64,000 bases of DNA. It comes from Bacteroidia bacterium. Lineage in GTDB: Bacteria; Bacteroidota; Bacteroidia; B-17B0; Aurantibacillaceae. The notes below the pieces were generated by a model. It had not been told where the DNA came from, searched no databases, and was given only the letters and a program-made list of their open reading frames with translations. This document shows, piece by piece, positions 3,995-25,090 of the stretch (position 1 is its first letter; each line of letters begins with the position of its first letter). The position numbers and the translations under genes are program-made. The stretch is from NCBI GenBank assembly GCA_021740825.1, contig JAIOZA010000013.1, positions 1 through 64,000 of the forward strand, written 5' to 3'.

Positions 3995-5047
3995 CTAAAA
4001 TCTTTCTTTTTTATATTTTGAAACCGAACGTTCTAATTCTTTAACAACTTCAGTTCTTAACCATGATGGGCTAATTAATTCCATATGCTTGCCGTAAGAT
4101 AAGATTAGTGCAACTAATTCGTAGGTAGGAACTAGTTTTAATGTCACAATAATTTCACCCATTTTTCGGTATTCCTTATATGTTTGAGATTTGTGCAATG
4201 GCATCGATTTGATGTAGTTTGCCATATCATTACTCACCCAAAGCGTAATTTCTTCTGCTTGTTCAGGACCAATTTTACCTATCGTGTTTATGCCTATTTT
4301 ATCATTATATAAATTCTTTAAATCAGTATCTCTATTTTCAATAAACTCTTTGTCAATCAAAATAGGATCGTAAATTCGATCTACCCCAAAGGACCTTATT
4401 TGTTTATGATCTTCTGCCTCCGAGTAACCAACTAAATACCATCGTTTGTTGCTTTCCTTCAGTAAATAAGGATGAATAATAATGGATTTAAATTGCTTTT
4501 TATTATATGAGTAGTGAATGAACGACACAGGTATTTTTTTCTTGATGCTACTTACAAGGGTTTCAAAATGTTCCATGCCACGCATATAGGTTGTTTCTTC
4601 TGGCTGTATAGCGTTTTCCAGTTTTTCTTCCTTATCTGATTTTTTAATGTCAACTGCTGATAGTAGTTTGTCAATCGCATGGTTATAGGAATCATTTACT
4701 TTGATGCCCTTAAAGTGTTGCAGTACACCAGCGGCTAATTCAATAGCTTCAATTTCTTTATCGTTCAATCCAAAAGTTTGAATCGTGAAATCGGGAAAGG
4801 ATTCTAAATCATAATAATAACTGTTACGTGATTTTCTGAATTTGATTGGAGCATTATAACCTCCATCAGCTTCACTTTTTTTCATGTTCCCAATATCCTT
4901 TTGAACGGTTTCTCTAGATACCTTAGTTTTTAATTTACGCTCAATAGCATAAATCAAATCATCCATGGTAGGATAGGGCTTATAAATGTTTGTTAAACAT
5001 TCATCAATGATTTTATATCTTAAAGTAGCGTCACTTTTAGGAGGCAT
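3995..5047 (-). CDS. WYL-domain transcriptional regulator (first)
   Basis: This 350-residue protein has the layout of WYL regulators such as BrxR and CapW, which repress phage-defence operons. An N-terminal winged helix (about residues 5-75, 'TLRYKIIDECL', 'SRETVQKDI') is followed by a WYL domain whose strand 'HPYLLKESNKRWYLVGY' lies near 192-208. A C-terminal WCX-like part carries 'LILSYGKHMELISP' (about 315-330). It is paralogous to the WYL protein at 18364. A palindrome, TACTTAAA-N5-TTTAAGTA, lies 9 bp upstream of the start codon and overlaps a possible -7 box, so autoregulation is likely. It leads a leftward operon with the unknown gene at 3558. Confidence 0.85.
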   Translation of the reverse strand: MPPKSDATLRYKIIDECLTNIYKPYPTMDDLIYAIERKLKTKVSRETVQKDIGNMKKSEADGGYNAPIKFRKSRNSYYYDLESFPDFTIQTFGLNDKEIEAIELAAGVLQHFKGIKVNDSYNHAIDKLLSAVDIKKSDKEEKLENAIQPEETTYMRGMEHFETLVSSIKKKIPVSFIHYSYNKKQFKSIIIHPYLLKESNKRWYLVGYSEAEDHKQIRSFGVDRIYDPILIDKEFIENRDTDLKNLYNDKIGINTIGKIGPEQAEEITLWVSNDMANYIKSMPLHKSQTYKEYRKMGEIIVTLKLVPTYELVALILSYGKHMELISPSWLRTEVVKELERSVSKYKKERF

Positions 5048-15826: not shown

Positions 15827-17647
15827 ATGCTTATTAACTTCTCAAATCATCCCTTTGAAACTTGGGATGAAAACCATAAAAACGCTGCGATTGATAAATA
15901 TCAATCTGTAAAGGATATTCCATTTCCTCATATTAACCCTAGTGCAGATGAATTAGATATAAAAAGTGAGGCAGTAAAGTATTTAGAACTTATTTTAAAT
16001 ATGTCCCCCGATGCTGTGCATATTATGGGGGAAATGAATTTCACCTTTCAAATGATTAATTATTTAATGAAGGAGGGGATTGAATGTATTGCTTCAACCA
16101 CTGATCGTGTCGTTGAAGACTTCCAAGATGGTACTCAAAAATCTATCTTTAAGTTTGTAAAATTTAGAAGTTACAATTTCTTACTTGAAGATCGTGTTGA
16201 AAATACTAAAAAAGGGTTGGTCTTAAATGCTGGTCAAAAAAAGGCATTTGAATTGATGAAGTCATTTATTCTAAAAGAAAATGATAATGATGTTTTTATC
16301 TTAAAAGGTTACGCAGGTACTGGTAAAACAACCCTTTTAAGATATTTTATTGAAAAGTGCTGCGAGGAAAAACTGACTGTCACACTGATGGCATCCACTG
16401 GTAGAGCGGCAGCTGTTTTAAAAACAAAGGCTAAATTTAATGCTACTACAGTTCACTCCTTGGTTTATAAATTTGATGAAGTAAAAGCTACCAGTGAAGA
16501 TGCATGGAAAATGGAAGGGGATGAAAAAGGGCAATTGTATTTGAATTTTACTCCTTGTTTGATTAATGATAATGATTTAACTGATGTATATATTATAGAT
16601 GAAGCATCTATGATTTCTGGATTTACTAATAAATCTATAAATGGAACTAAATTTGGCTCAGGTAATTTATTGAATGATTTGCTTGAAGTTGTTGGTAATT
16701 CAAAATTAATATTTGTTGGTGATCCATGCCAATTACCACCTGTTGATGAGGCTTCTTTTTCAGCTGCGCTCGATACTGATTTTTTAAGAAATAATTTGCA
16801 TAAAAAAGTGATTGACTTTGAGCTTACCGAAATACAACGCCAAGGTGCAAATAGCGAAATTCTTGAAATTGCGGCTCCATTAAGAGAACAAATTATTTCA
16901 AAAGCAATTCCAGAATGGCCGAAACTTGAAATTAGTAATCGATACAAGGATGTAAGAGCATTTAATTCAACGGACGAATTAATTAAGCAGTTTTTGATTG
17001 TTTTTAAGACTGTTGGAAGCGAAAATTGTATATTAGTTACCCATAAAAACAGCGAGGCACATGAAAATAATATATCCATTAGAAAGGACCTCTTTCCAAA
17101 TAAAGGATCAGTGCAAGTAGGAGACATTTTGATGATAATAAAGAATTGTATGCGCACTGGGTTGAGAAATGGCGACCAAGTTATAGTTCAAAAAATTGGA
17201 GAAAGCGCGCAGCGAGCCAAACAAGTTTTTTTACGACTTACAGTTAAAGATATTAATTCTGGAGTTGTGCATGATACAATGTTAATTGAATCCCTATTAA
17301 ATAGTTCCTCTTCTAAATTAGAATCAAATGAGAGTCGCGAATTAATAATTGATTTTGATTACAGAATGAAAGAGGCTAAGATTATTAGAAATTCCTCAGA
17401 CTATAAAGTTAAAATGAAAGCAGACATCTATATCAATGGCTTGCAAGCAAAATATGGCTATTCTATTACATTGCAAAAAGCACAAGGCGGTGAATGGCAA
17501 CATGTTTTTTTAAATATTACAAAATCGGTTTATATTTCAAAATTTGAAGGTAAACCACAAGATATGATAAAATGGTTTTATACAGCTATTACTCGAACTC
17601 AAAAATATTTGTATTTAAATATAGGAAGTTGGATTAAAAATAATTAA
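15827..17647 (+). CDS. RecD2/PIF1-like SF1 helicase with a novel N-terminal domain
   Basis: This 606-residue protein has a C-terminal SF1B helicase: Walker A 'GYAGTGKTTLL' (161-171), motif Ia 'ASTGRAAAVL' (189-198), 'TTVHSL' (207-212), Walker B 'VYIIDEASMI' (about 258-267), motif III 'GDPCQLPPV' (about 297-305) and the UvrD_C_2 end 'YSITLQKAQGGEW' with 'TAITRTQKYLYL'. The first ~117 residues are separate: 'MLINFSNHP', 'DIPFPHINPSA', 'PDAVHIMGE' and 'CIASTTDR', a Rossmann-like pattern. It recalls, from memory, small CRISPR-linked ring-nuclease/CARF-like proteins (Csx16/Csx20 type); that match is uncertain. A nucleotide-sensing domain controlling a helicase would suit a defence role. It overlaps the convergent gene at 17644 by 4 bp. 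Confidence 0.8.
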   Translation: MLINFSNHPFETWDENHKNAAIDKYQSVKDIPFPHINPSADELDIKSEAVKYLELILNMSPDAVHIMGEMNFTFQMINYLMKEGIECIASTTDRVVEDFQDGTQKSIFKFVKFRSYNFLLEDRVENTKKGLVLNAGQKKAFELMKSFILKENDNDVFILKGYAGTGKTTLLRYFIEKCCEEKLTVTLMASTGRAAAVLKTKAKFNATTVHSLVYKFDEVKATSEDAWKMEGDEKGQLYLNFTPCLINDNDLTDVYIIDEASMISGFTNKSINGTKFGSGNLLNDLLEVVGNSKLIFVGDPCQLPPVDEASFSAALDTDFLRNNLHKKVIDFELTEIQRQGANSEILEIAAPLREQIISKAIPEWPKLEISNRYKDVRAFNSTDELIKQFLIVFKTVGSENCILVTHKNSEAHENNISIRKDLFPNKGSVQVGDILMIIKNCMRTGLRNGDQVIVQKIGESAQRAKQVFLRLTVKDINSGVVHDTMLIESLLNSSSSKLESNESRELIIDFDYRMKEAKIIRNSSDYKVKMKADIYINGLQAKYGYSITLQKAQGGEWQHVFLNITKSVYISKFEGKPQDMIKWFYTAITRTQKYLYLNIGSWIKNN

Positions 17648-18363: not shown

Positions 18364-19374
18364 CTATTGATAATATTCACTTGTAAGCTTTAATGTTTTT
18401 TTTATTTTGTCTTTAAAGTTTTTAGGCCCAATAACTTTTACACCAGCGCCATAAGACAATATAACTTTTTCGAGTTCAATATTTGGTAACACTTCAATTG
18501 TAACTAATAACCCGTTTTCGCCGTTTTTTTTAACTTTTTGAGATTCATGTATGGGTTTGGTAATTACATATGGTGCTTCCTCTTTATTAAACAATAATTC
18601 AATTTTGCATAGTTTAGTGTTTTCGAGTTTTGTAACTCCAATAATGTCTTCAAAGTATTCATTAAAATTAATGGTTTTGTTTTTAATGAATTTAATTTTA
18701 GATATTTCGAATTCTACTATTCTATCTAGAGCAATATTGGAAATGGTTTTATATTCGTCATTCAATCCAAATAAAAACCAACGGTTATTATATTGTTTTA
18801 AATAGTATGGATGAATAATGTACTCTGTTTTTTTTATTGCCTTGAATGGCTTGTAGCTAATATTTAAGCACTGTTCGTTATAAATAGCATTAAATATATT
18901 TCCTAAAAATTTAATACCTTTTAGATAAGCGTTCGAATCGAAGCTAATAATATTTGAGGTATTATCTTTCAACTCAAAACCATTATTAATTTTAGTTACT
19001 ATTTCATTTACCCACGAAAACTGAGGCATTCCATCAAACCTTGAAATAATTTCAAGGGCTGATTTTATTTGTATTAATTCAGTTTTGCTTAATGGTTGAT
19101 TGTTGATTGAAAAGTTAGGGTCTCTATATCTATAAATTGACTTTCTGCTAACTTTTACTCGTTCAATATCTGCTTGCCATCCTGCGTCACTTTCCATAAA
19201 TGAAATATCGTCTCTTAATGTTCTTACAGAAATTCCATTACTTGATGGGTCCATTGCAGACAAGGCATCACAGCATTCATTCATTAAATCTTCGAATGTG
19301 TAGGTCCTTCCGCTATTTCTAAAGCAAGAATCGAGAACCTTATATCGTATTTGAGCATATTTTGTTGTAGCCAT
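18364..19374 (-). CDS. WYL-domain transcriptional regulator (second)
   Basis: I start this regulator at the ATG at 19374 (MATTKYAQIRYKVLD), nine codons inside the longest frame. This leaves the palindrome 19382-19400 outside the coding region. The product (336 residues) has an N-terminal winged helix with 'ISVRTLRDDISFM', a WYL domain with 'HPYYLKQYNNRWFLFGL' and a C-terminal part with 'KVILSYGAGVKVIGP'. It parallels the WYL protein at 3995-5047 throughout. WYL proteins of this layout (BrxR, CapW) bind inverted repeats by their own gene and control defence operons. Three identical dyads in front of the next rightward units make this protein the best candidate for their binding factor. Confidence 0.85.
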   Translation of the reverse strand: MATTKYAQIRYKVLDSCFRNSGRTYTFEDLMNECCDALSAMDPSSNGISVRTLRDDISFMESDAGWQADIERVKVSRKSIYRYRDPNFSINNQPLSKTELIQIKSALEIISRFDGMPQFSWVNEIVTKINNGFELKDNTSNIISFDSNAYLKGIKFLGNIFNAIYNEQCLNISYKPFKAIKKTEYIIHPYYLKQYNNRWFLFGLNDEYKTISNIALDRIVEFEISKIKFIKNKTINFNEYFEDIIGVTKLENTKLCKIELLFNKEEAPYVITKPIHESQKVKKNGENGLLVTIEVLPNIELEKVILSYGAGVKVIGPKNFKDKIKKTLKLTSEYYQ

Positions 19375-19381
19375 TTTTTGT

Positions 19382-19417
19382 TGTGCAGATAGGTTGCACA
19401 ATAATAAAATAAATTTG
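19382..19417 (+). promoter_or_regulatory. Operator 1 (TGTGCA-N7-TGCACA) with -7 box
   Basis: The dyad TGTGCA-GATAGGT-TGCACA spans 19382-19400 (arms extend to TTGTGCA/TGCACAA). Nine bp further right is TAAATTTG (19410-19417), a full TAnnTTTG match, for the gene at 19435. No TTTG lies 19 bp upstream of it; the dyad occupies that place. Leftward, CAATAATA (19399-19406) is a weak -7 box for the WYL gene, so the site could control both directions. Confidence 0.8.
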
Positions 19418-19434
19418 TTTCAAATCCAAATCAT

Positions 19435-19857
19435 ATGAGAAACTACATAGCAAGAAGAGTGAATGATATCGGTAAATATGAGAATACTAAATTAGGCAAA
19501 TCATTTTTGAAGGCAATTTTGACTAAAGATATTATTGCATTTGAGAACATGTTATTGGAAGAAAATTCCTATTTCAATGGATTGTGTAAGTGGAAAAGTT
19601 TAGAATTATTGAAAACCTATTTCGAAAAGTGCAATGAGCAATTTATTGAAATTGAATTTGACCAATGTACTTCATTGGATTATTATCCGGGCTGTTTAGC
19701 CTTTAAAATTATTTTTAGATATCTTGATACTGCTGAAGATATGCCGAATAGATTGGTTCTTGTACCAATTTTTGAAGATAGATTGTTAGTGGATATAGCG
19801 ATCAGTAAGAAATATGCGCCAATGTTTGTTTTAGATAGGTTAATGGAAAATAATTAA
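19435..19857 (+). CDS. Family-A small protein (NTF2-like?), first copy
   Basis: This 140-residue protein is a paralogue of the one at 20459. Both have 'AR-x-x-x-D' near the start, 'F-x-x-A-x(5)-D' then 'F-x-G-x(3)-KW' (about residues 24-55), a 'SLDYYPG' (here) or 'SLDIYAG' (there) motif, and a C-terminal strand 'LVPIFED' or 'LVVIFEN'. Helices followed by strands of this length suggest an NTF2-like cone fold, but no catalytic residues stand out. It is the first gene to the right of operator 1, transcribed away from the WYL regulator. Function unknown; a part in the WYL-controlled locus is inferred. Confidence 0.65.
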   Translation: MRNYIARRVNDIGKYENTKLGKSFLKAILTKDIIAFENMLLEENSYFNGLCKWKSLELLKTYFEKCNEQFIEIEFDQCTSLDYYPGCLAFKIIFRYLDTAEDMPNRLVLVPIFEDRLLVDIAISKKYAPMFVLDRLMENN

Positions 19858-19978
19858 AAAAAATAAAATGTTAAGTATGCAGATATAAGCAATATTAATA
19901 AAAATTGTTCCTTGCCAAACTGGTAATGGGAAAAATGGATGTTTTGCCGTTTTAGTATTTATAAATTAAAGAATAATT

Positions 19979-20398
19979 ATGAAAAAAGAATATAATATTA
20001 AAGATCAGGCAAGTGCTATTAGGCATTTTATTGAACAAATGGATATTGAAATGATTGACGCTTTTTTAGATGCAAAAAATACCTATCAAGATATGGAAAA
20101 AGAAAAGTTCCTTTCAAAACTTGAGCGCGTATTTCAATCATTTAGAAATTTTAGCGATACTTTTTTACTGCCTCACCAAGGTCGATGTAATAATTGCTAT
20201 AATGATAAAGTAGGCTATACTTTTGTTGGAAATTTCAGCTTTAACTATATCAGTATTATTGTTGATTCAGAAAAAGGGACTATTAATGATATGTTCGAAT
20301 GCAGCAGCTTTATGAATGATAATCAAAGTCTAAAACTCAATAAAAAAGTGTACATCGATGATTTTTTTATTGACTTTTTATCTTCCAAAAGAAAATAA
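19979..20398 (+). CDS. Family-B small protein with a CNNC motif
   Basis: This 139-residue protein is closely related to the C-terminal 130 residues of the protein at 24092. They share 'MDIEMIDAFL' (about residues 21-30), 'TYQD', 'CN-x-C' (CNNC here, CNSC there; about 71-74), 'GYTFVGN' (about 81-87) and 'NY-x-SII'. The conserved cysteine pair beside a strand may bind a metal or form a disulphide. It lies 121 bp after the family-A gene, with no operator of its own, so it is probably in the first unit. No named family is recognised. Confidence 0.65.
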   Translation: MKKEYNIKDQASAIRHFIEQMDIEMIDAFLDAKNTYQDMEKEKFLSKLERVFQSFRNFSDTFLLPHQGRCNNCYNDKVGYTFVGNFSFNYISIIVDSEKGTINDMFECSSFMNDNQSLKLNKKVYIDDFFIDFLSSKRK

Positions 20399-20403
20399 TT
20401 TAC

Positions 20404-20439
20404 TGTGCATGTTGATTGCACAGTTTAACTTTAATTTTG
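20404..20439 (+). promoter_or_regulatory. Operator 2 (TGTGCA-N7-TGCACA) with -7 box
   Basis: The dyad TGTGCA-TGTTGAT-TGCACA spans 20404-20422 (arms extend to ACTGTGCA/TGCACAGT). Nine bp to its right is TAATTTTG (20432-20439), a full TAnnTTTG match. The spacing is identical to operators 1 and 3. It lies 19 bp before the family-A gene at 20459 and heads the ATPase unit. As RNA it would also form an 8-bp hairpin, but there is no T-run, so it is not a typical terminator. Confidence 0.85.
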
Positions 20440-20458
20440 AATCAAAATAGATTATTAT

Positions 20459-20929
20459 ATGAAAACACTACTGGCAAGAAAGCAAACTGACGAACAAAGA
20501 ACATTAAATGATTTGGCACGTTACCAATTTATTATGGCAATGATGAACGTGGACGAGAGTATGCTAATTCCATATTTAAAGGATAATGGTAGTTTTCTCG
20601 GTTATATGAACAAGTGGCAGCTAATGAATTATTTGAGAAAGCAATTTAATAGGATTCAGCCATTTTTGTTTCAGTCAAGGCTAAGGGAAGGGATTTCCTT
20701 GGATATATACGCTGGATCAGATACGTTTGAAGTTTCATATGCTCCAGTAACTAATATTGACATGACATCATATGATGAGAATCAAGATTATGAAATGTTT
20801 TTTAACAATTCGAAATCTTTTAAAATCTTATTGGTTGTTATATTTGAAAACGGTAAAATCACGGATATTAGAATGCCTAAAAAAATAGCCTATAAAAAGC
20901 AAGTATCAAGATTTCAGATTGAAAATTAA
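20459..20929 (+). CDS. Family-A small protein, second copy
   Basis: This 156-residue paralogue of the protein at 19435 shares 'F-x-G-x(3)-KW' (about residues 47-54), 'SLDIYAG' (about 81-87) and 'LLVVIFENGKITDIRMPKK' near the end. The extra length is mostly a loop with 'MTSYDENQDYEM'. It is the first gene after operator 2 and lies 30 bp before the ATPase gene, so it is co-transcribed with the ATPase and its partner. A small protein always placed before an ATPase could be an inhibitor, sensor or adaptor of that complex (inference). Confidence 0.65.
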   Translation: MKTLLARKQTDEQRTLNDLARYQFIMAMMNVDESMLIPYLKDNGSFLGYMNKWQLMNYLRKQFNRIQPFLFQSRLREGISLDIYAGSDTFEVSYAPVTNIDMTSYDENQDYEMFFNNSKSFKILLVVIFENGKITDIRMPKKIAYKKQVSRFQIEN

Positions 20930-20959
20930 TACTAACTTTATTAATGAAATAAGAATAAA

Positions 20960-22837
20960 ATGATTACAAATTTTTCTATAAATAACTTTAGGATTTTCAA
21001 AGACAAAACAGACTTTGAAATTTCGCCTATCACAATTTTAACAGGACCAAATAATTCTGGTAAAAGTACTTTCATCAGAGCTTTAAGGCTTTTGATAGAA
21101 AGCGCTAAGAGTAGTTCATTGCTTTATCTTTTAAAATCATCTTCTGAAACAGATTATTTATCTTACAATGATATTTTTGGAAAAAGTCAATCAAAAGATA
21201 AAGTGGAATTTCAATTTCAATTGCCCCTAACTATTTCTAGAAATTACAATGAATATGATGGATCTGGGATTGATGTTTATTCAAAATTTAAAATTAGTCT
21301 TGAGTATATTAAATTCAACCAAAATGAATCTCCAAATCTAATTTTATCTTTATTAAATATTGACACAGAAGATGGGACTTCATTATTTAAAATTCATTTA
21401 TCTAAAAAGCATCTACATAACGAAGAATTGGAAGGTAATGTTGAAACTTCAGAATATAAATTCCACGCTAACATCGATATGTTCTTTGATTTGTTTTTTA
21501 ATAAAGTTATAGAAAAACAAGGCCTTGTTTTTTTATTCAAGCGATTCTTTTTGGGTGCCGATTTGGAGAATAGTATTCTTTTGAAAATAAAGGATACTTT
21601 CGAAGGAATGGTTTATTCTCCTATTAATCACATGGAATATGCTAATGCAAGGAACCAAAATGATTTAGTAAATACATTGATTGAAATTCAATCTACATTA
21701 TATCGTAATTGCATGCCAGCAAAATCAATAAACGGTGTGGCTTCATCGATTCATGATACTTTAGAGCGAGTTTTTATAAAACATTTAAATGAAGATTTTG
21801 TTATAATAGATCATGAGGAAGATAAAGCTATTTTGGCAAATAGCATGTCGTCGGTTTGTGAGCAGCTTTTTGATGAATTTGATAAATTTTGTAAACTAAT
21901 CTTGAGTAATTTGAATAGAAGTTTGCTATCATTCGATCATTATATTTCAGCATTTAGAGGTAAAATGTTACGTGAATTTGGAAGAAATGATTCTGAAAGA
22001 ATTAATAAAACTATTTTCAAATTGCTTGATTGCAATCGTAAAATATGTAATAATTATGCTATTAGATACAACGGAAGAACAATAGAATTGGGTTCAAGGC
22101 CGAATTTAAATTTTGTGAATGCTATGTTGAAAGCTGTATTCAAACTAGATTTAGTTCTTCAGATAAAATACGAAGTTTCAAAGCAAAAACATGAGGTTCT
22201 TTTGGATGACGGTTCGAATTTTAAAGTAAAAAATGGGGCTAGTGAAACTGACGAGAATGGGAATATAGTGTTAAGTGAATTAGTGTTCAATAATGATGGT
22301 CGTAATCTTACTAACCTAATTGATATGGGCTCTGGTATGTATCATTTGATTTTATTTTTGATAGAAATTGAGTTAGCAATAATTGACGGCGGCTATAATT
22401 ATTATAAATCAAAGATGATTGAGGTAGAAAATCCTTTAAATGGAGAAAATCATTTTGAAAAAAAGGATGGAAAATCGACACATACTATTATAATTGAAGA
22501 GCCTGAACTTTCTTTACATCCAAATTATCAATCTTTACTTGCAGATGTTATAGAGTATGCTTACAGTTTTTTTGGAGTAAAATTTATTATTGAAACTCAT
22601 AGTGAGTATTTAATTAGGAAATTACAATTGCTTCGAGCAAAAGGGTATTTTGATCATAATTCTGTTTTAATTTATAATATGAATAGACCTAATTCCACTA
22701 ATCCAAATTCATTAATTAAAAAAATTAGAATTAACGCTGATGGTTCCTTAACTCAGGACTTTGGTCCTGGTTTTTTCGATGAATCTACAAAGACAGCCGT
22801 TGAATTATTTATAGTAAAAAATGAGCAAAAAAATTAG
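20960..22837 (+). CDS. SMC/OLD-like AAA ATPase (AAA_21/DUF3696 type)
   Basis: This 625-residue ATPase has an ABC-type head split by a long middle: Walker A 'GPNNSGKST' (29-37) behind the typical start 'NFSINNFRIFKD', a signature-like 'DMGSGMYHLILFL' (about 455-467), Walker B 'IIIEEPELSLHP' (about 512-523) and H-loop 'IIETHSEYLI' (about 543-552). This is the AAA_21/DUF3696 group, used as the sensor or motor in many two-gene defence systems (for example PARIS, Gabija, and retron and Septu partners). No TOPRIM domain follows, so the nuclease must be elsewhere. It is followed at 2 bp by a dedicated partner and lies in the unit led by operator 2. Confidence 0.85.
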   Translation: MITNFSINNFRIFKDKTDFEISPITILTGPNNSGKSTFIRALRLLIESAKSSSLLYLLKSSSETDYLSYNDIFGKSQSKDKVEFQFQLPLTISRNYNEYDGSGIDVYSKFKISLEYIKFNQNESPNLILSLLNIDTEDGTSLFKIHLSKKHLHNEELEGNVETSEYKFHANIDMFFDLFFNKVIEKQGLVFLFKRFFLGADLENSILLKIKDTFEGMVYSPINHMEYANARNQNDLVNTLIEIQSTLYRNCMPAKSINGVASSIHDTLERVFIKHLNEDFVIIDHEEDKAILANSMSSVCEQLFDEFDKFCKLILSNLNRSLLSFDHYISAFRGKMLREFGRNDSERINKTIFKLLDCNRKICNNYAIRYNGRTIELGSRPNLNFVNAMLKAVFKLDLVLQIKYEVSKQKHEVLLDDGSNFKVKNGASETDENGNIVLSELVFNNDGRNLTNLIDMGSGMYHLILFLIEIELAIIDGGYNYYKSKMIEVENPLNGENHFEKKDGKSTHTIIIEEPELSLHPNYQSLLADVIEYAYSFFGVKFIIETHSEYLIRKLQLLRAKGYFDHNSVLIYNMNRPNSTNPNSLIKKIRINADGSLTQDFGPGFFDESTKTAVELFIVKNEQKN

Positions 22838-22839
22838 TT

Positions 22840-23841
22840 ATGGAAGTGTATATATCAAAGCAATTTTTGGAAAATTTAGATAATAAGAGTCGAAATGTGG
22901 ATCAAAAAAACTCAGATGAAGAGATTATTTCTGTATTGAAGATTAAAAAATTATTATCACTTTTAAAAATTAATACCAATTTTTCTAAAGAAGAAATTTT
23001 AAGCTATTTGGATTTAAGCGGAAATTATACTTCAAATTCAATCAAAGAAATGTGTTTAAGTTTGGCTTTAAAAGACGGAAGATGCAATTTAAATGATTTA
23101 AAATTTGATAGTATACCAAATAATAAGGCTTTTTACTTTTATGATGAATTACTTCCAGATAAATCTAGTAATGGCATAATCTACTTTAAAAATGTAAGTG
23201 GTATAAATGATTTTTATTCAAAATGTATGCGTACTAGTAGGGACTTGAATGAAGTAGATTATTCAATAATAAAGACCTCTGCTCCTGACTGCAATTCAAT
23301 GCTATATATTGACCCGTATTTTTTTGGGGACAAAGACCCAGTAAAAAGAAATAAGAAAACACAAAAGTTTATTGAACTTTTAAATTATTATTTGAAAAGT
23401 AATTTAAAAGTTCAATTTCATCTCACAATACTCGCTCCATTTGGGGCTTATGAAAATCAGAAAAAAAAAGTAGTACCGTTTGATGAAATAGTATTTAATG
23501 AGGCAAAAGAGAAGTTAGAAAAAGTTAAAAATTTATTGTTCGAAATTAAACTTTGTGATTCTATCCGTTGGCAAAAGGGATCTGTTGAACAAGATCGAAT
23601 CTTCTATACAAATTATACTAGTGGTAATATCGGGCACCCAGGTACTCCTAAAACACTTTTTAATCAAAATTTTATACCAAGAGATGAAGATGTGAAAAAT
23701 GGATATCGTGAATTCATCAATAATTTAGTCCATTGGAAGAGGATTGTTGATGGTATACCTGAAAAATTAAATGGGCGAATAACACATTACTGCAATAAAG
23801 AATTCACTAATAGGCTATTTGAGAATTTAGAAAACTATTAA
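22840..23841 (+). CDS. Partner/effector of the AAA ATPase, unknown fold
   Basis: This 333-residue protein starts 2 bp after the ATPase stop, a sign of a fixed pair. The first ~120 residues are polar and helical. The rest has strands 'SMLYIDPYFFGD' (about residues 150-161), 'KVQFHLTILAPFG' (about 187-199) and 'EQDRIFYTNYTSG' (about 249-261). The last resembles, in position and wording, the 'HDR-x(2)-TNY' motif of PLD-like effector domains but lacks the histidine, so nuclease activity is doubtful. There is no membrane segment. I take it as effector or adaptor of the ATPase; I do not recognise a named family. Confidence 0.65.
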   Translation: MEVYISKQFLENLDNKSRNVDQKNSDEEIISVLKIKKLLSLLKINTNFSKEEILSYLDLSGNYTSNSIKEMCLSLALKDGRCNLNDLKFDSIPNNKAFYFYDELLPDKSSNGIIYFKNVSGINDFYSKCMRTSRDLNEVDYSIIKTSAPDCNSMLYIDPYFFGDKDPVKRNKKTQKFIELLNYYLKSNLKVQFHLTILAPFGAYENQKKKVVPFDEIVFNEAKEKLEKVKNLLFEIKLCDSIRWQKGSVEQDRIFYTNYTSGNIGHPGTPKTLFNQNFIPRDEDVKNGYREFINNLVHWKRIVDGIPEKLNGRITHYCNKEFTNRLFENLENY

Positions 23842-23848
23842 CCTATAC

Positions 23849-23884
23849 TGTGCAGTTCCACTGCACACATCCTTCCTTATTTTG
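23849..23884 (+). promoter_or_regulatory. Operator 3 (TGTGCA-N7-TGCACA) with -7 box
   Basis: The dyad TGTGCA-GTTCCAC-TGCACA spans 23849-23867 (left arm extends to ACTGTGCAG). Nine bp to its right is TTATTTTG (23877-23884), a seven-of-eight match to TAnnTTTG, placed exactly as at operators 1 and 2. It precedes the 56-aa frame at 23905 and the gene at 24092. The 7-bp GTGCAG stem lies 7 bp after the effector stop and has no following T-run. Confidence 0.8.
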
Positions 23885-23904: not shown

Positions 23905-24075
23905 ATGGAAACAAGTTTTAATGCATTTGATTATTTAGAGTTTGTCTCGCCAACCAAAAAACTGGTTGTGCTTTTAAAGGTTATTTCCGATTCTTCTGAG
24001 GGCAATCAAACTAATATTTTTGTTTTTATGGGTTGTCTAGTACTAGAGAGACTTCCTTTTTACAGAAGTATTTAA
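23905..24075 (+). CDS. 56-aa protein in the third WYL-linked unit
   Basis: A short frame, ATG to TAA, encodes 56 residues beginning METSFNAFDYLEFVSPTKKL with a hydrophobic middle (VVLLKVIS) and later 'NIFVFMGCLVLERLPF'. An AAAGG lies 4 bp upstream of the start, and operator 3 with its -7 box is 21 bp upstream, so it would be the first gene of that transcript. No family is recognised, and it may be a leader peptide or a remnant of a longer gene. It ends 17 bp before the next gene. Confidence 0.45.
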   Translation: METSFNAFDYLEFVSPTKKLVVLLKVISDSSEGNQTNIFVFMGCLVLERLPFYRSI

Positions 24076-24091
24076 CAGCTATCAACCTTCA

Positions 24092-25090
24092 ATGAAATTA
24101 AAAAACAAAGAAATTATGAATCAAATAATTAGTGACATAGATATCGTTTTAACTCGAACGGAAGAATTAGTTAGTAATAGAAAATTACTTCAGATACTTA
24201 AAAGGGATATCGAATATTCTGATGATGTTAAAATTAAAATGAGACTAAGTAAATGGTTATTGTTTTTTAATGAGGCAAAAATAAATAATTTTTATATTTA
24301 TTCTAATACTGTTTATGTTTTGTTTGATGCATGCAATACGAATGAAATTTTTAAAAACCAAACAGAGCAAGAGTTTGAGCAAAGTTTAAGTTTTTATAAA
24401 TCAATTATTAGTCATCCATATTTAAGCAGACCAATCGATTTTAACAACGCAAAGAATATTTTTGCCATAGCACTTATTTATGGAAAATATGGTACAATGC
24501 AAATTAATTCCTTTAAAAATGCCTTGGAAAATTTGAAATTTGAAATTTCTGAAAATAGCCTGCACGATTTTTTTAAAAGCTTATTATTGAAAGGTGAGTA
24601 CCCAAAGTTGTTTCCTAAAAATGTAACTCAGTTCAATGAGGCGGATTTGGATGTATTTATGAATGTTGTTAAATCTAATTCCTGTGCAAAGCATGAACTA
24701 ATCCCCTATGAATTAAAGAATCAAGCATTAGCTATTAAGTATTTTTTCGAAAGAATGGATATTGAAATGATTGATGCTTTTCTTTCGGACGAACATACCT
24801 ACCAAGACGTCGATAAAAGAACATTTATTTCAGAATTGTCTATGGTATTTAATCAATTTATAGATTCTGGGGACTCTCATTTAATTGCATTTGAAGGTGC
24901 TTGTAATTCGTGTATAAAAGGTAAATTTGGCTATACGTTTGTTGGTAATGTAAGTTCTAATTATCTTAGTATTATCTTTGATATTAAGGATGATAAAATT
25001 GTCGATTTATATGATTGCACTAAATTTAAAATCAGAATAGGAGAGCTGGAATTAAATCAAAAGTTCAGTATTAATTTATTTGGTTTATAA
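24092..25090 (+). CDS. Two-part protein with a C-terminal family-B domain
   Basis: In this 332-residue protein the first ~200 residues are helical ('ISDIDIVLTRTEELVSNRKLL', 'MRLSKWLLFFNEAK', 'YPKLFPKNVTQFNEADLDVFM' in order) and are not recognised. The last ~130 are homologous to the whole protein at 19979: 'MDIEMIDAFLSD', 'TYQD', 'CNSC', 'GYTFVGN' and 'NYLSIIFD'. It is thus a fusion of a new domain to family B, or the 19979 protein is a freed copy. It belongs to the unit led by operator 3. No signal peptide or membrane helix is present. Function unknown. Confidence 0.65.
   Translation: MKLKNKEIMNQIISDIDIVLTRTEELVSNRKLLQILKRDIEYSDDVKIKMRLSKWLLFFNEAKINNFYIYSNTVYVLFDACNTNEIFKNQTEQEFEQSLSFYKSIISHPYLSRPIDFNNAKNIFAIALIYGKYGTMQINSFKNALENLKFEISENSLHDFFKSLLLKGEYPKLFPKNVTQFNEADLDVFMNVVKSNSCAKHELIPYELKNQALAIKYFFERMDIEMIDAFLSDEHTYQDVDKRTFISELSMVFNQFIDSGDSHLIAFEGACNSCIKGKFGYTFVGNVSSNYLSIIFDIKDDKIVDLYDCTKFKIRIGELELNQKFSINLFGL

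Follow-up and report, generated by a model that had tools for sequence, protein, structure and literature searches.

How does a WYL-domain regulator act from three identical palindromes that stand at one fixed distance from three promoters? The question is raised by the first 64,000 nucleotides of contig JAIOZA010000013.1 (assembly GCA_021740825.1) from a Bacteroidia bacterium, a stretch referred to here as the window, in which the dyad TGTGCA-N7-TGCACA precedes three transcription units next to the gene of a WYL protein. The comparisons described below make it probable that this protein is an activator resembling DriD of Caulobacter crescentus, which would bind the dyad and switch on defence operons. 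They go beyond the original prediction, made from the letters of the window, in that the dyad with its -7 box is a control element common to many defence systems and phages. The regulator gene and its sites are as follows.

18364 to 19374, minus strand: WYL regulator gene, 336 amino acids (aa), with winged helix-turn-helix (HTH), WYL, and WCX domains (Pfam and fold); presumed reader of the operators
19382 to 19400, plus strand: operator 1, TGTGCAGATAGGTTGCACA, exact match to TGTGCA-N7-TGCACA
20404 to 20422, plus strand: operator 2, TGTGCATGTTGATTGCACA, exact match to the same pattern
23849 to 23867, plus strand: operator 3, TGTGCAGTTCCACTGCACA, exact match to the same pattern
19410 to 19417, plus strand: -7 box TAAATTTG of a rightward promoter, 9 bp past operator 1; composite match, no mismatch
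20432 to 20439, plus strand: -7 box TAATTTTG, 9 bp past operator 2; composite match, no mismatch
23877 to 23884, plus strand: -7 box TTATTTTG, 9 bp past operator 3; composite match, one mismatch
19399 to 19406, minus strand: candidate -7 box TATTATTG for the WYL gene, overlapping operator 1 at its end; read from the sequence, the same arrangement being scored in locus L004

Exact matching bore out the prediction that the three dyads have equal spacer length and that each lies 9 bp from a box of the TAnnTTTG type, the third box departing from that form by a single base. The arms are identical in all three operators, and the 7-base spacers differ (GATAGGT, TGTTGAT, and GTTCCAC). As had also been predicted, no TTTG was found by eye at the -33 position of any of the three promoters; the second has a TTG 17 bp upstream of its box, within the operator spacer. 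In the 2.95-Mb source genome (87.6% complete), the exact dyad occurs at the three window sites only, where roughly 0.06 sites per genome would be expected by chance at about 30% GC (our own arithmetic), and the pattern read backwards has no match. In this genome, therefore, the dyad is not a common sequence at unrelated places, as it might have been had the original prediction been mistaken. Only exact sites are significant, because a window scan allowing three mismatches gave 13 dyad matches, fewer than the mean of 20.3 in shuffled sequence. Among perfect 6-N7-6 palindromes whose arms contain 4 or more G/C, the three operators are the only ones in the window that have a -7-like box at a gap of 9 bp (gap 9) on either side.

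The arrangement recurs around relatives of the window WYL protein, of which the best 80 of 392 confirmed (44-96% identity) were compared; by their record titles they are mostly from Bacteroidota, with a few from Balneolota, Ignavibacteriota, Chlorobiota, and other phyla, some of which may be misbinned. In 55 of the 80 loci the dyad, with up to two mismatches, is present in the 250 bp preceding the WYL start, compared with a mean of 0.38 and a maximum of 5 for 60 permuted palindromic arms; at up to one mismatch, 35 loci have a spacer of 7, and no alternative length from 3 to 13 is found in more than one. More copies precede other operons of the same WYL islands. When whole loci were scanned for the composite promoter (dyad with up to two mismatches and a TAnnTTTG-like box at gap 9), 122 sites were found in 69 loci; gap 8 gave 19 sites and each remaining gap from 3 to 15 at most 8, and 40 permuted arms at gap 9 gave a mean of 0.9 loci and a maximum of 10. 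After flanks had been thinned for similarity (below 70% identity over 40 bp), a gap-9 box was present on 31 of 45 WYL-divergent flanks, with a mean of 0.29 at gaps outside 7-11, and on 28 of 56 directed flanks of remote sites, each site being counted in both directions; on the thinned flanks of the WYL side (n = 54), gap 8 occurred in 10 and gap 9 in 6. This comparative evidence supports the three-unit regulon that had been proposed beside the WYL gene, as well as the suggestion that its regulator may be an activator as well as a repressor. A separate observation is that relatives of the window WYL protein with less than 60% identity occur on 19 plasmid records (H1-H12), including plasmids of Chryseobacterium, Myroides, Hymenobacter, and Persicobacter.

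In 296 genomes of the phylum, an independent sample, the exact dyad was found in 34 and the pattern read backwards in 7 (own count). Outside the source genome there are 36 exact-dyad sites, 29 of which were examined as 3-kb stretches: 26 have no WYL gene in the stretch and none of these has a gap-9 box on either side, whereas two of the three beside a WYL gene do. The expectation that a scan would find the dyad beside this WYL family only thus holds in the source genome and fails in the others, where most bare dyads stand apart from WYL genes and from boxes. A protein search of the same genomes recovered 10 relatives of at least 40% identity besides that of the window, and 8 of these have the dyad with a gap-9 box. 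Conversely, the composite with one mismatch has 7 matches outside the source genome, all within 20 kb of a WYL relative, a neighbourhood that makes up about 0.2% of the sequence. That the sites are chance palindromes near ordinary promoters is a notion to which the frequency of stray dyads, about one exact copy per ten phylum genomes away from WYL genes, lends some colour, but the permuted-arm and gap controls and the lack of a gap-9 box at any of the 26 stray dyads refute it, and its probability is negligible.

What most strongly indicates that the dyad is read by the WYL protein itself is that the half-site changes with the protein clade while N7 and gap 9 remain constant. In a second set of 19 relatives with 34-38% identity (L124-L142), the operator was typed as TRCGCA-N7-TGCGYA in 13 (weakly in L137 and L138), and 6 members have a gap-9 box on the divergent side. 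The tree places the 13 rows so typed, together with 5 untyped rows, in one supported clade (98/90). Two TGCGCA-typed rows fall inside the TGTGCA clade, L053, which is a weak call, and L021, in which TGCGCA-N7-TGCGCA stands before the cyclase of a cyclic oligonucleotide-based anti-phage signalling system (CBASS). Residue 54 of the HTH, which is aromatic in most TGTGCA rows and Q or E with TGCGCA, was considered as a covarying position and kept as a hint only, because the window protein has R there together with TGTGCA sites. These observations bear on the possibility that the dyad is read by a regulator encoded elsewhere and that the WYL gene is merely one of its targets. There are two further WYL genes in the source genome, which has three in all, and the operator is also found in phage contigs without a WYL gene. 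However, in addition to the covariation with subclade, all sites of the source genome lie within 4.5 kb beside the window WYL gene, composites with up to one mismatch are confined in the 296 genomes to the neighbourhoods of WYL relatives, and the second WYL-domain gene of the window (3995-5047, minus strand) has no such dyad upstream; this explanation is considered very improbable.

The genes behind TRCGCA sites include those for TROVE/Ro60 proteins (L126 and L135) and RtcB (L129), and also, as read by eye, L131, which suggests WYL control of RNA repair in Bacteroidota. Regulated RNA-repair genes are known from the enterobacterial rtcBA operon, but its regulator, RtcR, is a CARF-domain activator that works with sigma-54 and is not a WYL protein.

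The window regulator matches the Pfam families WYL (E 8.8e-11, 42.1 bits, cut-off 21.8) and WCX (E 3.2e-10, 40.7 bits, cut-off 23.9). Its AlphaFold2 (AF2) model, with a mean predicted local distance difference test score (pLDDT) of 79.8 and a predicted template modelling score (pTM) of 0.42, has an N-terminal HTH of three helices and two strands at residues 5-83. Compared by Foldseek with solved structures, the model is closest to DriD (9.7e-15) and PafBC (3.3e-14), followed by BrxR (6.9e-9) and CapW (5.0e-8). If the box is placed at -12 to -5, as is the sigma-A box of Flavobacterium psychrophilum (PMC9723704), the dyad spans -40 to -22, which puts its right half-site near -26 and its N7 spacer on top of -33; the outer bases are more strongly conserved in the promoter-proximal half-site than in the distal one. 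The DriD model is favoured because of the one-base register, this placement of the dyad, and the closest folds. DriD, a homodimer with winged HTH, WYL, and WCX domains like those of the window regulator, reads ATACGAC-N7-GTCGTAT at one distance from the -10 element and sandwiches sigma-4 at a poor -35 (PMC12340889); the two systems share the form of the operator, its fixed position over the -35 region, and the fold. They differ in the half-site (ATACGAC as opposed to TGTGCA), in the genes served, which are DNA-damage genes for DriD and mostly defence operons here, and in the promoter: DriD promoters have poor -10 and -35 elements, whereas those described here have Bacteroidota -7 boxes that look strong, in a set selected for the box, and lack TTTG at -33; binding and activation are predictions in the present case. 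The mycobacterial activators PafBC and SiwR also make contact at -26, next to the -10 element. PafBC replaces recognition of the -35 (PMC11804915), and SiwR depends on the -26 region (PMC10693628) and reads a 19-bp imperfect palindrome. PafBC differs in being a heterodimer, which by itself does not bind promoter DNA, and SiwR in its conserved -26 triplet, GGA, which is unlike the half-site here.

On this model, a WYL homodimer would bind TGTGCA-N7-TGCACA, a step strongly supported by co-occurrence, and would sit astride region 4 of sigma at the place normally taken by a -33 element, keeping RNA polymerase at a promoter equipped with a -7 box and lacking a -33. Binding of a signal by the WYL domain would then turn the defence operons on; by analogy with DriD, PafBC, and SiwR, single-stranded nucleic acid arising in phage attack or DNA damage is the probable signal. 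The three units of the window would be induced together by one regulator, which would also repress its own gene, whose start codon lies 7 bp from operator 1: because the end of the candidate -7 box overlaps operator 1, a regulator bound there would block that box. The same candidate-box arrangement was scored in L004, whose WYL protein is 96% identical to that of the window. More generally, among 18 WYL genes whose start codon is no more than 20 bp from the dyad, as in the window, 13 show a blocking arrangement, with a -7 box that overlaps the dyad or immediately precedes it; among 21 at a distance of 21-60 bp, 16 show an activating one, with a box on the far side of the dyad at gap 8-10. Kinship was not thinned in either count.

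The blocking arrangement at those 13 WYL genes counts in favour of a different explanation, that the WYL protein is a repressor which sits over -33, shuts off the three units as well as its own gene, and is released by a signal at the WYL domain. Unrestrained CBASS or retrons would be dangerous, which is a point in favour of such restraint. The defence-linked WYL regulators CapW and BrxR are indeed repressors (PMC9122588, PMC9122601), and they resemble the present system in having a WYL dimer, a palindromic operator, and defence operons as targets (CBASS for CapW and BREX, bacteriophage exclusion, for BrxR). However, CapW represses from a site overlapping the -10, and BrxR from R-BOX1, an 11-bp repeat with a 5-bp spacer just after the predicted promoter (PMC9122588, PMC9122601), whereas on the operon side of the 80 loci the dyads lie in one register, 9 bp upstream of the box, the blocking position being seen only at some of the WYL genes themselves. 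A blocking protein would not need phasing to 1 bp, and the fold is nearer to the activators. The repressor explanation is considered unlikely, although far from negligible.

Several observations weigh against activation of the DriD kind. The original prediction had argued for a possible activator from the missing -33 element. The absence of TTTG stands, and TTTG occurs at spacings of 15-25 from the box in only 1 of 80 thinned operon-side promoters, all selected for the gap-9 box (a TTG lies upstream at spacing 17 in ten and at spacing 18 in one). As proof of activation it was abandoned, since a genome-wide RNA sequencing study was unable to identify any -33 motif in Flavobacterium johnsoniae (PMC7366714). 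The one-base fixed spacing is the stronger argument, but a repressor always evolving over the same promoter could also hold one register. The -7 boxes look strong, with TTTG at 92-100% per position in the same box-selected promoters, and, in contrast to the poor elements of DriD promoters, might suffice for firing without help. The set of 80 loci, assembled by similarity to the window WYL protein, includes some close kin, and 11 of its members have no composite site (L009, L034, L039, L045, L047, L052, L056, L057, L059, L061, and L069). In the 296 genomes, one WYL relative (L119) has the dyad without an acceptable box and another (L122) has neither, no more than 11 of 49 composites with two mismatches have a WYL relative nearby, and reading the composite backwards also yields 23 matches with up to two mismatches in 22 genomes (own count), so that most of the far-off two-mismatch composites are background. 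Lastly, the ranking of folds may rest on single domains, because the placement of domains in the AF2 model is unsure at a pTM of 0.42 and the root mean square deviations reported by Foldseek are large.

The operons that a DriD-like regulator would switch on were characterized with PADLOC, using 20 proteins chosen by hand, not at random, from the first to fourth genes of operons in 12 loci. At the thresholds used, 16 matched PADLOC families: retron-type reverse transcriptases (L012, L028, and L008), proteins of type I restriction and methylation (L058, L026, L017, L040, and L064), helicases of PDC-M16A and PDC-M16B and a protein of PDC-M51A, an NsnB-like ATPase (L058), Wadjet JetA (L033), Druantia DruH (L053), and a CBASS cyclase with an adjoining TIR-STING protein (L024). 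The four without a PADLOC match are L012:5578-6363, L028:2879-4765, L033:10317-11297, which is RNase_H_2 in Pfam, and L082:5094-7913. All of five proteins chosen later matched as well, namely CBASS cyclases (L021 and L042), a CBASS phospholipase (L020), a viperin (L065), and an ATPase (L067), the last behind a dyad without an acceptable -7 box. Between the promoter and the gene of the retron-type reverse transcriptase there is a conserved leader (L012:7557-7850, minus strand, and 17 others, alignment A3), in which a GTTCTTTGAAAGCCTGCTGC-like stretch begins at about the expected +1, directly after the box, and therefore supports the box as a real promoter. Fourteen of the 18 aligned leaders extend to the start of the reverse transcriptase, and in these, GCAGCAGGCTTCATTGAAC-like letters precede the gene in one of two differing versions and, as read by eye, could pair with the leader start in the manner of the a1/a2 repeats of retrons; RNAalifold gave no pairs for the leader, and the L012 leader, the one searched against Rfam, had two sub-threshold matches only. 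A boxA antitermination sequence (GTTCTTTGA) was considered for the leader and dropped, as the stretch can pair with the second copy before the reverse transcriptase in the way of a1/a2. The conserved leaders had also prompted the idea of CRISPR arrays beside WYL genes. A simple scan of the loci and the window for spaced exact repeats found repeats in L045, L062, and L079 only, none of which read as an array, and the idea was given up because the leaders belong to retron-type reverse transcriptase operons.

The exact composite promoter also occurs in 16 contigs of IMG/VR, where gap 7, gap 11, and the pattern read backwards have no match at all, and a TATGCA variant of the composite occurs in 13 contigs, 3 of them already known; the 29 IMG/VR loci are L177-L192, L195, L200, and L213-L223. 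A WYL domain is absent from 15 of the 16 whole viral records, which may be fragments, and a host regulator would therefore have to act on the phage copies. Two loci, L181 and L213, carry a WYL gene, L213 also having a type I methylase-like protein as read by eye, and from their gene content look like host islands. By our own rule, a downstream open reading frame (ORF) is present in 24 of the 29 loci, and the 24 proteins form 12 clusters. In one family, all 17 viral relatives found, 11 of which were located by protein alone and some of which are near copies, have retained the promoter, with 0-2 mismatches, at a distance of 72-73 bp from the ATG. Conservation among the 16 that were profiled is 0.95 at the specified bases, 0.92 in leader and gene, and 0.56 in the 60 bp upstream of the dyad, from which it appears that the promoter is kept with its gene while the preceding DNA differs. 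The neighbours are phage genes, encoding a terminase (L184), a major head protein and protease (L189), and an amidase (L221). In L182 (55% GC), the first 82 of 333 residues of the next gene product match an anti-restriction family (4e-13); eight small viral genes scanned against PHROG, and five of them against PADLOC, matched no family. We propose tentatively that Bacteroidota phages wire genes of their own into the WYL defence alarm of the host via TGTGCA-N7-TGCACA-N9-TAnnTTTG, and advance a counter-defence role of the small phage genes as a hypothesis. If the proposal is true, the signal that induces the retron, CBASS, and restriction operons of the host also induces a phage counter-measure or a defence gene of the prophage itself, and one cis element, fed by a single host WYL sensor, serves both sides.

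The units behind the three operators of the window comprise the following genes.

19435 to 19857, plus strand: unit 1, first gene, 140 aa, no assigned function; paralogue of the 156-aa unit 2 gene (26% identity over 143 columns, E 2e-7)
19979 to 20398, plus strand: unit 1, second gene, 139 aa, no assigned function; 48% identical to the C-terminal part of 24092-25090
20459 to 20929, plus strand: unit 2, first gene, 156 aa, no assigned function; paralogue of the 140-aa gene
20960 to 22837, plus strand: unit 2, AAA_15/AAA_21 ATPase, 625 aa, resembling PADLOC NsnB, PDC-M55A, and AriA
22840 to 23841, plus strand: unit 2, partner of the ATPase, 333 aa, no assigned function; weakly similar pairs in other WYL islands
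23905 to 24075, plus strand: unit 3, ORF of 56 aa from the sequence; no family match
24092 to 25090, plus strand: unit 3, protein of 332 aa, no assigned function; its end 48% identical to the 139-aa protein

Two paralogous sets of small genes are thus distributed across the three units (19435-20929 and 24092-25090). ATPases similar to that of unit 2 are paired in four other WYL islands (L054, L058, L066, and L071) with partners of 314-357 aa, which match no family and have 13-22% identity to the 333-aa protein. A tblastn search with the latter gave one match, in L066 (26% over 108 residues, E 3.9e-5), its only homologue in the 296 genomes at E up to 1e-5 was itself, and its AF2 model was uninformative (pLDDT 37). 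We read the three units as a putative, undescribed defence cluster. Elsewhere in the window, a candidate defence gene at 15827-17647, plus strand, encodes a protein in which a Csx20-like domain (N-terminal, residues 1-116) is joined to a helicase of PADLOC type PDC-M16A.

A WYL activator acting over the -35 belongs to a mechanism class that is already known. Novelty appears to lie in the family and its operator, in the range of defence systems that it spans, and in the copies carried by phages; in the open-access literature, a scope outside which most subscription journals fall, neither the operator nor a Bacteroidota WYL regulon was mentioned in the title or the start of the abstract of any of the matches listed. 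To our knowledge, few regulators of anti-phage systems have been described, and CapW and BrxR, the WYL regulators of defence operons for which descriptions were found, are repressors. In the present case a signature that can be read from a promoter links one family of regulators to retrons, CBASS, viperins, Wadjet, Druantia, restriction, and RNA-repair genes, for the most part in Bacteroidota. It predicts uncharacterised defence genes, among them the three units of the window and the pair formed by an AAA ATPase and its partner, and makes the induction of these defences by a nucleic-acid alarm directly testable; the copies in phages would mark phage genes that respond to the alarm of the host.

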